A stretch of 64,000 nt of DNA. Origin: Lysobacter enzymogenes (lineage in GTDB: Bacteria; Pseudomonadota; Gammaproteobacteria; Xanthomonadales; Xanthomonadaceae). The translations under genes were made by a program, and so were the position numbers. The DNA lies in the NCBI RefSeq assembly GCF_900106525.1, contig NZ_FNOG01000008.1:286127-350126 (forward strand), read 5' to 3'. Within the stretch, counting starts at the first letter, position 1. Every line of letters begins with the position of its first letter. Shown here piece by piece: positions 5,394 through 8,879 of the stretch. The notes beneath the pieces are model-generated. The model was not told the origin of the DNA. It saw nothing but the letters and a program-made list of their open reading frames with translations, and did no database searches.

Positions 5394-5798
5394 ATGGCCG
5401 TTTCCGCGTATTCCGCTGCTGGCCGTTTCCGCGACGAGACCGTCGCCGAGATCAATGTGACCCCGCTGGTCGACGTGATGCTGGTCCTGCTGATCATCTT
5501 CATGGTGACCGCGCCGGCGCTGACCGGGCAGCTCAAGGTCAGCCTGCCCATCACCACCCCGATCGATGTCGTGGACCCGCCGAAAGCCGAGTTGAGCGTG
5601 CAGCAGGACGGCAGCTTCGTGCTCGATGGCCGGGCGATGACGCGCGCGCAACTGTCGGCCGCGCTGTCAGCGCTCGCCGCCGAGCATCCCGACCTGGCGT
5701 TGAGCGTCGACACCAATGCCGATGCGGACTACCAGGCCTTCGCGCAGGCGTTGGCCACGGCGGACGCGGCCGGGATCCGTAATCTGTCGACGAGGTAA
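5394..5798 (+). CDS. ExbD-family protein, third copy, separate transcription unit
   Basis: The product has 134 residues. It contains [17 protein letters not shown] with the conserved aspartate (Asp27), then a periplasmic domain ending AAGIRNLSTR. It is cut off from the tonB operon by the terminator at 5211-5241 and a 150-bp gap, and has its own terminator downstream, so it is probably transcribed independently. Its C-terminus is closer to TolR-like ExbD proteins than to the two neighbouring copies. A GGAGG ribosome-binding site lies six bases before the ATG. It may serve a subset of TonB-dependent receptors (inference). Confidence 0.9.
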   Translation: MAVSAYSAAGRFRDETVAEINVTPLVDVMLVLLIIFMVTAPALTGQLKVSLPITTPIDVVDPPKAELSVQQDGSFVLDGRAMTRAQLSAALSALAAEHPDLALSVDTNADADYQAFAQALATADAAGIRNLSTR

Positions 5799-5836: not shown

Positions 5837-5870
5837 GAAAACGGCCGCCGGATGGGCGGCCGTTTTCTTT
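5837..5870 (+). terminator. Rho-independent terminator after the third exbD
   Basis: A 13-bp perfect inverted repeat (5837-5849 with 5855-5867) around a 5-base loop, ending in a T-rich tract. It marks the left edge of the DnaA-box array. Confidence 0.9.
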
Positions 5871-5887: not shown

Positions 5888-7922
5888 TTGTCCACAGCGT
5901 TGCGATGGGCGATGTCGGCTTCGCATGTCGTGGCAGGTCCGGCGCGGCAGCGACGACATGGGCGCGACTGGCGGGACTTGTCCACAGCATCGTCGCTGTG
6001 GATCCACGCGAGAAGCGCGGAATGCCCGATCTACCCTTCCGACGCGATCGCGATTTGTCCACAAGCGGAGCTCCGCTGAAGTGGACGAGCGGGATATCCA
6101 CAGTCGTTCGGAGTGTGGACAGGTCTAGAGTCTGGACCTGCCCCGCTCAATTCGGCTGCGCTGTGCATAAGTGCGGCGTGCTCGCATGGAGGCAGTAGCT
6201 GGGCGCTCATGGCCGGAGAACTTTGTTGTCCACAGGCGCGATGTCGTAGCCCGATGCTGCAGCGAACAAACGGCATCGCGCCCAGGTGCGGCACCTGCCT
6301 TTGAAATGAAACGGCAAGGCAGCCGGCAACTGCGAGGTGTTGATAAGTCGTCGCGTTCCTGCTGCCGCAAACGCTCACACGCACCGCGCGCGCAAGAACG
6401 CATCGATGCGCGTTGTCCACAGAGGGCTACGCCGCCGTCGTTCGCGTCCGGCCTCGGGATACGCCACCGGACGGCCGCAACACAGCGTGTGCCTCGAACA
6501 GTTGTCCACACCGATGCCGGCCTCCTAGAAAAAGCGAGAAAAACGCCTGAATTTGGTGGGTTTTGTGATGCCCGCGCGAAGACTTATGACAAGACTTGTC
6601 CACAAGGCAGTACAGCGGCCGCAGCCGCGACGGGCCGGCGGATGCGGCACGTCGATGAGCAGTGCATCGCAGGATGTAGCGGACACTTGTCCGAATCTGT
6701 CGTGACGGCGATGGCGGCGGTTCTCGCGGCGCCGCGCGGTGGCTGGGGATTGTCCACAGCGTGGACGCGACCGCTGCGCACGCGCGCTGCCTTGTCAGTG
6801 GGCGCCGGCTGCGCGGCTGGCCTGGCTCGTTGGTCTATTTGTCCACAGAGGTATTGCATCGCCCCTGGTCGCTCGCTCGCGGGTCGGGCGTTGTCCACAG
6901 GTGCAACTACGAACGGGGCTGTGTCTTAGCGACGCTATCTTTCGGGCCGGCGATACCGCGCGGCAATCAGCGGATCTGCCGAAGCGCGCTTTATCCACAT
7001 GTCGCACAGAGCGGCGATGCCGCTGGCCTAGGCGACCGTACAAGTGGAGATTCGCGCGAGATCGCTTTGTGCAGCTACGCCTTTGCATCGTCAGCCGCGC
7101 TTATCCACAAATGCTGGTGGAAGCGTCGGCGCTGCGTGGCTGCTCAATGCTTCTGCATCATGTTCGAAACGGCGCGACACGATGATGCGAGCGAGTTCGT
7201 CGTTGTCCACAGGGATGATTCGAGCGCCGTCGAAATCCTATCCGACGTGGGTTGTCCACAAGTGCGTCTTCGGTGTTCGCAGGGTGCGGGTACGACTCGC
7301 AACGATGTTGCTGTAGAGACTTGTCCACAAGCGAATCGGTGCGACGCCCGCGCGAGCGAATCTTCTCGTCGCGGGCGCGATCGCCGAATCGAACGTGCGA
7401 GCGACGCGCGCAGTTTGTCCACAGATACCGCCTTACGCGCGTATCGCGTCCAAACGCTTGGTGCGCGCTGGTTGGCGAATTCGGCACACGTACTTGTCCA
7501 CAAGACATTCGCATGGTCGCCACCGCGTTGTTTGCGAATCTGTGTGCAATGCGGTTGTCCACAAGTCGTATCGCGGCACCTGTTTGTCCACAGCACTCGC
7601 GGAGCGTGTCGCGGGAGCGTTGCGGCATGTGCGCAGCGCCGATGGCGAGCAATCGTTTATCCACAGAACGTCGGCGATGCTACGGCCGCATGCGTAGTAG
7701 TGATGCGTGCGTCGTCGGCGGTGGACATCGCACCGAAGCGAGCTACCGATCACGCGCGACTGGCTTATCCACACGTGTCGAATCGAATCGCCCGTGACGG
7801 GCGCGGATACGCGAGAGGCAGCGTTGTCGAAAACCCGCTTGTCCACAGGCGCGCCGAGTCGAATACGTCGACACGCACGATTCCGCGCAGCGGCGAGTCG
7901 TCGCGCATACCAGTTGTCCACA
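5888..7922 (+). repeat. Array of 23 DnaA boxes, all in one orientation
   Basis: Exact TTRTCCACA occurs 23 times on the + strand. TTGTCCACA starts at 5888, 5978, 6055, 6226, 6413, 6502, 6596, 6750, 6839, 6891, 7203, 7252, 7321, 7415, 7494, 7555, 7584, 7839 and 7914. TTATCCACA starts at 6991, 7101, 7657 and 7765. I found no exact copy on the - strand here. Near matches are ATATCCACA at 6094 (+), CTGTCCACA at 6114-6122 (-), TTATGCACA at 6162-6170 (-) and TTATCCACT at 7990-7998 (-). Start-to-start spacing is 29-187 bases, average about 92. The region lies between convergent genes, has no credible CDS, and is lower in G+C than its flanks (two 60-base lines I counted were 57-58%). TTATCCACA is the classical DnaA box and TTGTCCACA a common variant. 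Several copies sit in CTTGTCCACAAG, an imperfect palindrome, so another DNA-binding protein remains possible. Confidence 0.85.
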
Positions 7923-8058: not shown

Positions 8059-8814
8059 TCAGCGACTGGCCGCCATCACCGCCAGATAGCCGCGCACCGT
8101 CGCATCGAGGCCGTCATACAGCGCCTCGCCGATCAGCGCATGGCCGATCGACACCTCCAGCACGTTCGGCACGGCGCGCAGGAACGCGCCGAGGTTGGCC
8201 TGGCTCAGGTCGTGCCCGGCGTTGACGCCGAGACCGACGGCCTGGGCGCGGCGGGCGGCGGCAGCGAATTCGGCCAGCGCGGTGCTGGCGTCGCCGGCGG
8301 CGAAGGCCTCGGCGAACGGGCCTGTGTACAACTCGACCCGCTGCGCGCCGAGCTCGGCCGCGCGCTCGATGCCGTCGCGGTCGGCGTCGGCGAACACGCT
8401 GACGCGGCAGCCGAGTTCGCGCAGTTCGGCGATGCGCGGCCGCAGCGCGGCGGCGTCGCGTTCGAAGTCGAAGCCGTGGTCGGAGGTGAGCTGGTCGTCG
8501 CCATCGGGCACCAGCGTCGCCTGCGCCGGGCGAGCGCGTCGGCACAACTCGAGCAGGCCGGGGTAGCCGGCGCGCGGCGGCGCGAACGGGTTGCCTTCGA
8601 TGTTGAACTCGACGCCGCGTGCGTGGGCGAGTTCGGCCAGCGCGTAGACGTCGTATTCGCGGATGTGGCGCGCGTCGGGGCGCGGGTGCACGGTGATGCC
8701 GTGGGCGCCGGCGTCGAGGCAGGCGCGCGCGGCGCGGACCACATCGGGTTCGGACCCACCGCGCGAATTGCGCAGCACCGCGATCTTGTTGACGTTGACG
8801 CTGAGGACGGTCAT
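8059..8814 (-). CDS. pdxJ: Pyridoxine 5'-phosphate synthase
   Basis: PdxJ condenses 1-deoxy-D-xylulose 5-phosphate with 3-amino-2-oxopropyl phosphate to make pyridoxine 5'-phosphate, the last ring-forming step of DXP-dependent vitamin B6 synthesis. The 251 residues begin [20 protein letters not shown], the phosphate- and substrate-binding start typical of the family. They continue with [44 protein letters not shown] and the closing [13 protein letters not shown] barrel motif. An in-frame TTG six bases upstream is ignored in favour of the ATG. It is convergent with the third exbD across the DnaA-box array. Confidence 0.97.
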
Positions 8815-8879
8815 GGCCAAAGCCTAGCGCGCACTGCGCGTAGCTGCGAGTGCGCAATCTGGCCGCCGTGGTCGCGGCC

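Follow-up and report, generated by a model that had tools for sequence, protein, structure and literature searches.

A compact one-directional array of DnaA-box sequences near the predicted replication origin in one Lysobacter clade

Titration of DnaA by chromosomal boxes is a decades-old proposal that long stood without experimental evidence, according to the account in PMC12371093, which also reports recent support for chromosomal titration in E. coli. DnaA boxes in E. coli are denser near oriC, a distribution that the same article interprets as favouring titration; the enrichment it describes is broad, spanning several centisomes, and relaxed boxes there number 902 +/- 77 per genome. In Bacillus subtilis, removal of six DnaA-box clusters was followed by early initiation, an effect described as strong only when all six were gone (Okumura 2012, as reviewed in PMC5295017), and a statement in PMC5295017 says in addition that no B. 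subtilis clusters with significant roles have been identified. Clusters in Streptomyces coelicolor are said to repress untimely initiation (Smulczyk-Krawczyszyn 2006, as reviewed in PMC5742627). The datA locus, as summarised in PMC5742627 and PMC5295017, lies at 94.7 min versus 84.6 min for oriC and comprises about five boxes in ~1 kb together with an essential IHF site.

The locus described here lies in a window of 64 kb, the whole stretch of Lysobacter enzymogenes DNA that was analysed (C3:286127-350126 of the 6.26-Mb genome G000). The window contains 27 exact TTRTCCACA sequences, 23 of which fall at 5888-7922, all on the + strand, whereas dinucleotide shuffles predict 0.16 for the entire 64 kb and yielded a maximum of 2 in 100 shuffles. 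A first-pass annotation had reported 23 same-strand boxes, none opposite, at one per 92 bases, and the count confirms this. The other exact boxes are in the first 16 kb (8880 -, 12440 +, 13704 + and 15976 +), and the last 48 kb holds none. Within the array, 19 of the 23 boxes read TTGTCCACA and 4 of the 23 read TTATCCACA. Steps between boxes average 92 bp (range 29-187 bp) and are evener than random placement would give (CV 0.41 vs 0.95; as low in 0 of 20,000 simulations); helical phasing, tested for the window array only, was absent. The - strand of the array has no exact TTRTCCACA but is enriched in weaker sites, with 4 at one mismatch where 0.17 would be expected and 12 at two mismatches where 2.9 would be expected; one of the former, TTATGCACA at 6162, fits the E. 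coli consensus. The features of the locus, in window coordinates, are as follows.

5394..5798, + strand: exbD3, third ExbD/TolR-family gene, upstream border
5838..5870, + strand: GC-rich inverted repeat and T-rich run before box 1, read by eye
5888..7922, + strand: DnaA-box array, 23 same-direction TTRTCCACA, by sequence count
5888..5896, + strand: box 1, TTGTCCACA, exact match
5978..5986, + strand: box 2, TTGTCCACA, exact match
6055..6063, + strand: box 3, TTGTCCACA, exact match
6226..6234, + strand: box 4, TTGTCCACA, exact match
6413..6421, + strand: box 5, TTGTCCACA, exact match
6502..6510, + strand: box 6, TTGTCCACA, exact match; first core box
6525..6604, + strand: conserved core, with the lowest-GC 40 bp (from 6525), CTTATGACAAGA (6583-6594) and box 7
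6596..6604, + strand: box 7, TTGTCCACA, common to 5/5 carriers, preceded by CTTATGACAAGA and one base
6681..6714, + strand: second conserved block, with palindrome GGACACTTGTCC at its start
6750..6758, + strand: box 8, TTGTCCACA, exact match
6839..6847, + strand: box 9, TTGTCCACA, exact match
6891..6899, + strand: box 10, TTGTCCACA, exact match
6991..6999, + strand: box 11, TTATCCACA, exact match
7101..7109, + strand: box 12, TTATCCACA, exact match
7203..7211, + strand: box 13, TTGTCCACA, exact match
7252..7260, + strand: box 14, TTGTCCACA, exact match
7321..7329, + strand: box 15, TTGTCCACA, exact match
7415..7423, + strand: box 16, TTGTCCACA, exact match
7494..7502, + strand: box 17, TTGTCCACA, exact match
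7555..7563, + strand: box 18, TTGTCCACA, exact match
7584..7592, + strand: box 19, TTGTCCACA, exact match
7657..7665, + strand: box 20, TTATCCACA, exact match
7765..7773, + strand: box 21, TTATCCACA, exact match
7839..7847, + strand: box 22, TTGTCCACA, exact match
7914..7922, + strand: box 23, TTGTCCACA, exact match
8059..8820, - strand: pdxJ, convergent downstream border

An origin-side cluster of DnaA boxes is a known kind of element, while the number and density of the boxes, their single direction and the gain in a single clade appear new to us. Titles and abstract openings on DnaA boxes or origins in Lysobacter and Xanthomonas, a scope outside which most subscription journals fall, contain no such array. 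Like datA as described in PMC5742627, the array is a non-coding cluster of DnaA boxes that lies on the origin side of the chromosome but outside oriC, with boxes in one direction; it differs in having 23 exact boxes in 2 kb, in lying ~13 kb from the likely oriC and in lacking an IHF consensus. The last difference bears on whether the array works as a datA-type site, at which head-to-tail DnaA-ATP complexes on the boxes would stimulate ATP hydrolysis and so inactivate DnaA. The gene-poor, origin-side position would suit such a role, as would the common direction, which the essential datA boxes are also reported to share (PMC5742627). However, datA requires an IHF site between its boxes, and the strict IHF consensus has zero matches in the 64-kb window; one-mismatch IHF sites are at chance level in all five Lysobacter arrays discussed below (1 vs 0.7 in the window's gap), and without an IHF site there is no obvious bend to join distant boxes. 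Because the IHF consensus is missing, we do not count the array as a member of the datA type, and we regard a datA-like mechanism as unlikely.

The B. subtilis clusters (DBCs) are likewise dense and near, yet outside, oriC (a predicted oriC in the present case; PMC5295017), but they form six separate clusters, whereas the locus here is one large, evenly spaced, one-direction array. For S. coelicolor the likeness is that TTGTCCACA is listed as its high-affinity box (PMC4285127); it belongs to a distant phylum, and the comparison concerns box sequence and reported role rather than cluster layout. Boxes also crowd near oriC in E. coli (PMC12371093), where they are scattered, while the Lysobacter array is a compact, removable 2-kb block with 23/64 of the genome's strict, canonical boxes. 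Within the array the smallest step is 29 bp. DARS is characterised by a fixed layout of three boxes lying close together and by regulatory IHF/Fis sites. As for satellite or tandem repeats, a unit longer than the box is not found in the window but is found in part of the array of another carrier, G003.

The first-pass annotation placed the array in a convergent exbD3/pdxJ gap without a credible gene. Both borders are confirmed, and a coding-sequence reading was rejected because a Pfam search at E 0.01 with nine of the ORFs within or overlapping the gap returned nothing. A mobile origin, plasmid or phage, was rejected as well, since blastn against plasmid and phage collections returned zero matches. 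The inverted repeat and T-run at 5838-5870 have a similar counterpart in 5/5 carriers and, read by eye, form a putative exbD3 terminator.

On the chromosome, dnaA occupies C3:277064-278506 and the array C3:292014-294048, the array starting 13.5 kb past the end of dnaA. In the dnaA-dnaN region (dnaN was identified by eye), TTATCCACA occurs three times and dnaN is preceded by an AT-rich stretch (GC 0.275 over 40 bp); this region, on the basis of these boxes and this stretch, is the likely oriC. An earlier guess of about 10-20 kb between array and oriC agrees with the mapped distance to dnaA, oriC itself being predicted. A parS site at C3:281868 lies about 10 kb from the array. Exact TTRTCCACA sequences number 64 in the 6.26 Mb, compared with 19 for a reversed-pattern control, and 38 of the 64, including the 23 of the array, fall within C3:250-310 kb. 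In the related genome G008, the 400 kb surrounding dnaA contain 32 boxes, every one of them within -8.5 to +25.8 kb.

This position raises the question of whether the array with its AT-rich core might itself be a replication start, or might serve a bipartite oriC as its second module. The cumulative GC-skew curve has its minimum near the array both in 350 kb of C3 (-2914 at 290 kb, though nearly as low, -2909, at 320 kb) and in a 400-kb stretch of G008 (at 15 kb), and in 3/5 carriers (window, G008 and G003) no other patch of the gap has a GC content as low as that of the conserved core. Yet a skew minimum 14-15 kb past dnaA, coinciding with a switch in gene direction, is also present in the array-free G001, G006 and G022 (first 19-20 kb examined), and the minimum loses force as a sign of an origin because these three species have one too. 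In addition, the lowest 40-bp GC in the gap is only 0.40 (from 6525) vs 0.275 in the dnaA-dnaN region, a search of the array gap found no strongly AT-rich element, and the boxes are widely separated. Replication licensing in the sense of an origin, one of the functions proposed by the first-pass annotation, is therefore disfavoured, and we consider a replication start here highly improbable.

Twenty genomes of the genus were examined at the pdxJ locus. Forward/reverse box counts in the exbD3-pdxJ gap are 23/0 in the window, 13/0 in G008, 12/0 in G003, 12/3 in G023 and 13/1 in G027, or 73 forward vs 4 reverse boxes over the five arrays. The gap is without any box in 13/20 genomes, among them G010, where it spans 2.3 kb; a single box is present in the gap of G002, and the G021 contig breaks off close to pdxJ. 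In a tree of pdxJ alone, drawn midpoint-rooted, the five carriers make up one side of a branch with support 98/98. Absence from close relatives, which had been named beforehand as evidence against the annotation's reading, is thus found in part: 13 of 20 genomes have no box and one has a single box, but the carriers form one clade, which indicates a lineage-specific gain rather than noise. Whole-genome box totals (reversed control in brackets) are 64 (19) in G000, 56 (20) in G008, 56 (26) in G023 and 58 (57) in G027 among carriers, and 25 (38) in G001, 23 (37) in G006, 21 (44) in G022 and 19 (30) in G004 among genomes without the array. G027 is distinguished from its control by the position of its boxes, not by their total.

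Beyond the genus, samples of the family and of the class were scanned. Box pairs with a 60-90 bp spacer occur in 8 of 247 family genomes, a sample that includes G000 and G023 and leaves out G003, G008 and G027. G000 and G023 match through the exbD3-pdxJ array, G021 and G074 through another repeat, and G099, G103, G125 and G152 through one pair each, the G103 pair resembling the G021/G074 repeat. Box triples occur in 2 of the 369 class genomes sampled, with seven in G000 and one in G374 (85% complete). When the core was searched by homology in 149 family genomes, 23 of them had matches, which outside G000 are just 22-51 bases long.

Conservation was assessed with masked alignments, in which the boxes were hidden so as not to steer the alignment, and with unmasked ones. 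In the masked comparison of G008 (13 boxes) with G003 (12), the most closely related pair, 8 boxes coincide exactly at 65% flank identity, against a null mean of 0.08 and a neutral box survival of ~3%. Flank identity in the other nine carrier pairs is 47-53%, which barely permits alignment, and the number of coinciding boxes ranges from 0 to 4. Seven of these pairs lie above their null (P 0.005 or less), G008-G023 reaches P 0.066, and G008-G027 has no coinciding box. In unmasked alignments, box columns are better conserved than other columns in 9/10 pairs (P 0.0105 or less), including 0.92 vs 0.65 for the flanks between G008 and G003; in the window-G008 pair the boxes are no better conserved than their surroundings (0.52 vs 0.48, P 0.17). 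With so few coinciding boxes outside G008/G003, it is the number rather than each box that seems to have been retained, and distant arrays appear to conserve box number, direction and core rather than individual boxes. The evenness of box spacing is pronounced in the window and less so in G008 (P 0.024), and in G003 it does not reach significance (P 0.13).

Two core blocks are common to the five carriers. The first ends in CTTATGACAAGA-(C/G)-TTGTCCACA, and the 24-mer from 6583 is identical in 3/5 carriers and one base different in G008 and in G027. The second lies around GGACACTTGTCCGAATC, and across 6681-6714 the other four carriers match 29 to 33 of 34 bases. Each block also contains a palindrome, GACAAGACTTGTC (6588-6600, overlapping box 7) and CGGACACTTGTCCG (6680-6693), and the two resemble operator half-sites. 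The sole repeated element of the window array is the 9-mer with a purine preference at -2 and +1; the box flanks in the window resemble one another no more than random DNA would (identity 0.28 vs 0.27 by chance). Across the arrays, position 3 on the + strand is A in 20, G in 53, T in 2 and C in 0 cases (A/G 73/75), while one-mismatch variants at positions other than 3 number 0 to 3 per position. Purines are favoured at -2 (60/73) and at +1 (59/73); they lengthen the site, as expected of a protein site.

That protein need not be DnaA, and the motif could be recognised by another factor, for example a nucleoid-organising protein near parS, or act as RNA in read-through transcripts. The confinement of exact boxes to one strand, the two core palindromes, which are unlike plain DnaA boxes, and the parS site ~10 kb away would all be compatible with this, whereas the A/G alternation at position 3 is the difference between known DnaA boxes as listed in PMC4285127. 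The RNA form is further opposed by the terminator-like repeat (by eye) that precedes box 1, by Rfam, where no family reaches the gathering score in the array region, and by an unfavourable covariation term (+0.5; 7/58 pairs with both bases replaced in at least one sequence) in an alignment that comprised every carrier except G023. Given the Rfam and covariation results, a structured RNA was rejected, and recognition by another factor or as RNA is in our view very unlikely.

Probable traces of how such arrays arise are preserved in G003. Its array starts with a 55-bp unit, present in 4.1 copies, that combines the terminator-like sequence of exbD3 with the first box; its exbD2-exbD3 gap (L036:14142-14838) contains eight opposite-facing boxes at steps of ~100 bp, within which lies a 102-bp tandem unit in 2.6 copies. 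TTATCCCCAGC or a close variant follows 5/8 of these boxes. The exbD2-exbD3 gap of G008 has three reverse boxes, and in the exbD3-pdxJ gap of G023 one adjacent box pair has above-chance flank similarity (0.54). The window array has no box-bearing tandem repeat; its self-matches are partial ones centred on boxes, together with a small number of short pairs. Since the opposite-facing G003 array lies one gene upstream, arrays on the same replication arm can differ in direction, and replication-fork polarity is disfavoured as the cause of the single direction. Birth through tandem duplication would explain one direction without fork polarity, and the direction of the boxes is likely a relic of it.

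The same duplications could instead have produced a near-neutral, functionless repeat, one box having spread through a gene-free gap. The fresh tandem copies in G003 (55-bp x 4.1, 102-bp x 2.6) and the confinement of the gain to one clade are what this would predict. Against it, the window flanks retain no residual similarity, yet the 23 boxes are letter-perfect, and the boxes of G008 and G003 are far better conserved than their flanks (0.92 vs 0.65). A repeat of this kind is accordingly quite improbable as an account of the array.

DnaA itself is present, and its DNA-binding domain aligns over its full length with E. coli domain IV (1j1v). Eight species, five carriers and three without the array, share the same last 95 residues, and altered DnaA specificity was rejected because domain IV is identical in all eight species examined. 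The E. coli DnaA-box consensus TTWTNCACA excludes G at position 3. With G at this position in 19/23 boxes and an E. coli-like domain IV, affinity is perhaps moderate, and most array boxes may be weaker than oriC boxes. TTATCCACA is given as the high-affinity box for E. coli, and TTGTCCACA as that for Streptomyces and Mycobacterium (PMC4285127 Table 1).

We favour, with somewhat better than even confidence, the reading of the array as an origin-proximal DnaA sink acting by titration, with binding and effect both predicted from the sequence. Titration had been among the roles suggested at the outset, and it stands as the best reading of the boxes, their position and their clade, though the DnaA binding and its effect are themselves inferred. 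Each box is predicted to bind one DnaA independently. The boxes are 20-178 bp apart edge to edge, which we judge too distant for an oligomer of the oriC type, and the array would hold DnaA without assembling an initiation complex. Being near oriC, it would be duplicated soon after each initiation; once it is doubled, free DnaA would fall and re-initiation would be delayed. Weighing against a sink, 13/20 genus genomes lack the array, and weak - strand sites are in excess. A second DnaA-like ATPase at C12:436211, perhaps Hda, may make titration less important.

More tentatively, and a little short of an even chance, the array may be an IHF-free, titration-only sponge, an evenly spaced, one-direction block with more than a third of the canonical DnaA boxes of the genome, built once by tandem duplication beside oriC and selected for box number as the intervening DNA drifted and the DNA-binding domain of DnaA stayed unchanged. 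If this is true, sister species that share this domain, with and without the array, would offer the initiator-titration model a natural experiment. The existence of relatives in which this domain is the same but the array is missing would allow the titration model to be tested directly. The array also suggests that replication-regulatory sites can arise within a genus.

Other box clusters were seen in these genomes. Five TTATCCACA lie within 172 bp at C3:268486-268657 (L013:8487-8658), ~9 kb upstream of dnaA and beside an AT-rich patch, in the order two forward, two reverse, one forward. The layout is repeated in G008 (-8.5 kb), at G023:C1:3950169-3950334 and in G027 (L033:2025-2196), and was not seen in the G003 stretch examined or in the box lists of G001, G004, G006 and G022. 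A separate intergenic repeat with a unit of ~200 bp occurs at G000:C12:149921-150774 and C12:209130-209715 (L029, L030), and also in G021 (L039) and at G074:C17:49037-49378, in another genus, with a unit of ~119 bp. It often reads TGTCCGCA-3 bp-TTGTCCACA-5 bp-TGTGGA, its units being separated by GGACAAAAAA or the complement of that sequence. Finally, an inverted pair, TTATCCACA-5 bp-TGTGGATAA, is present at G000:C4:131799-131821 as a single copy per genome, and occurs once each in G001, G004, G006, G022 and G023, and in G027 among the matches listed; found with or without the array, it is perhaps a DnaA-controlled promoter.
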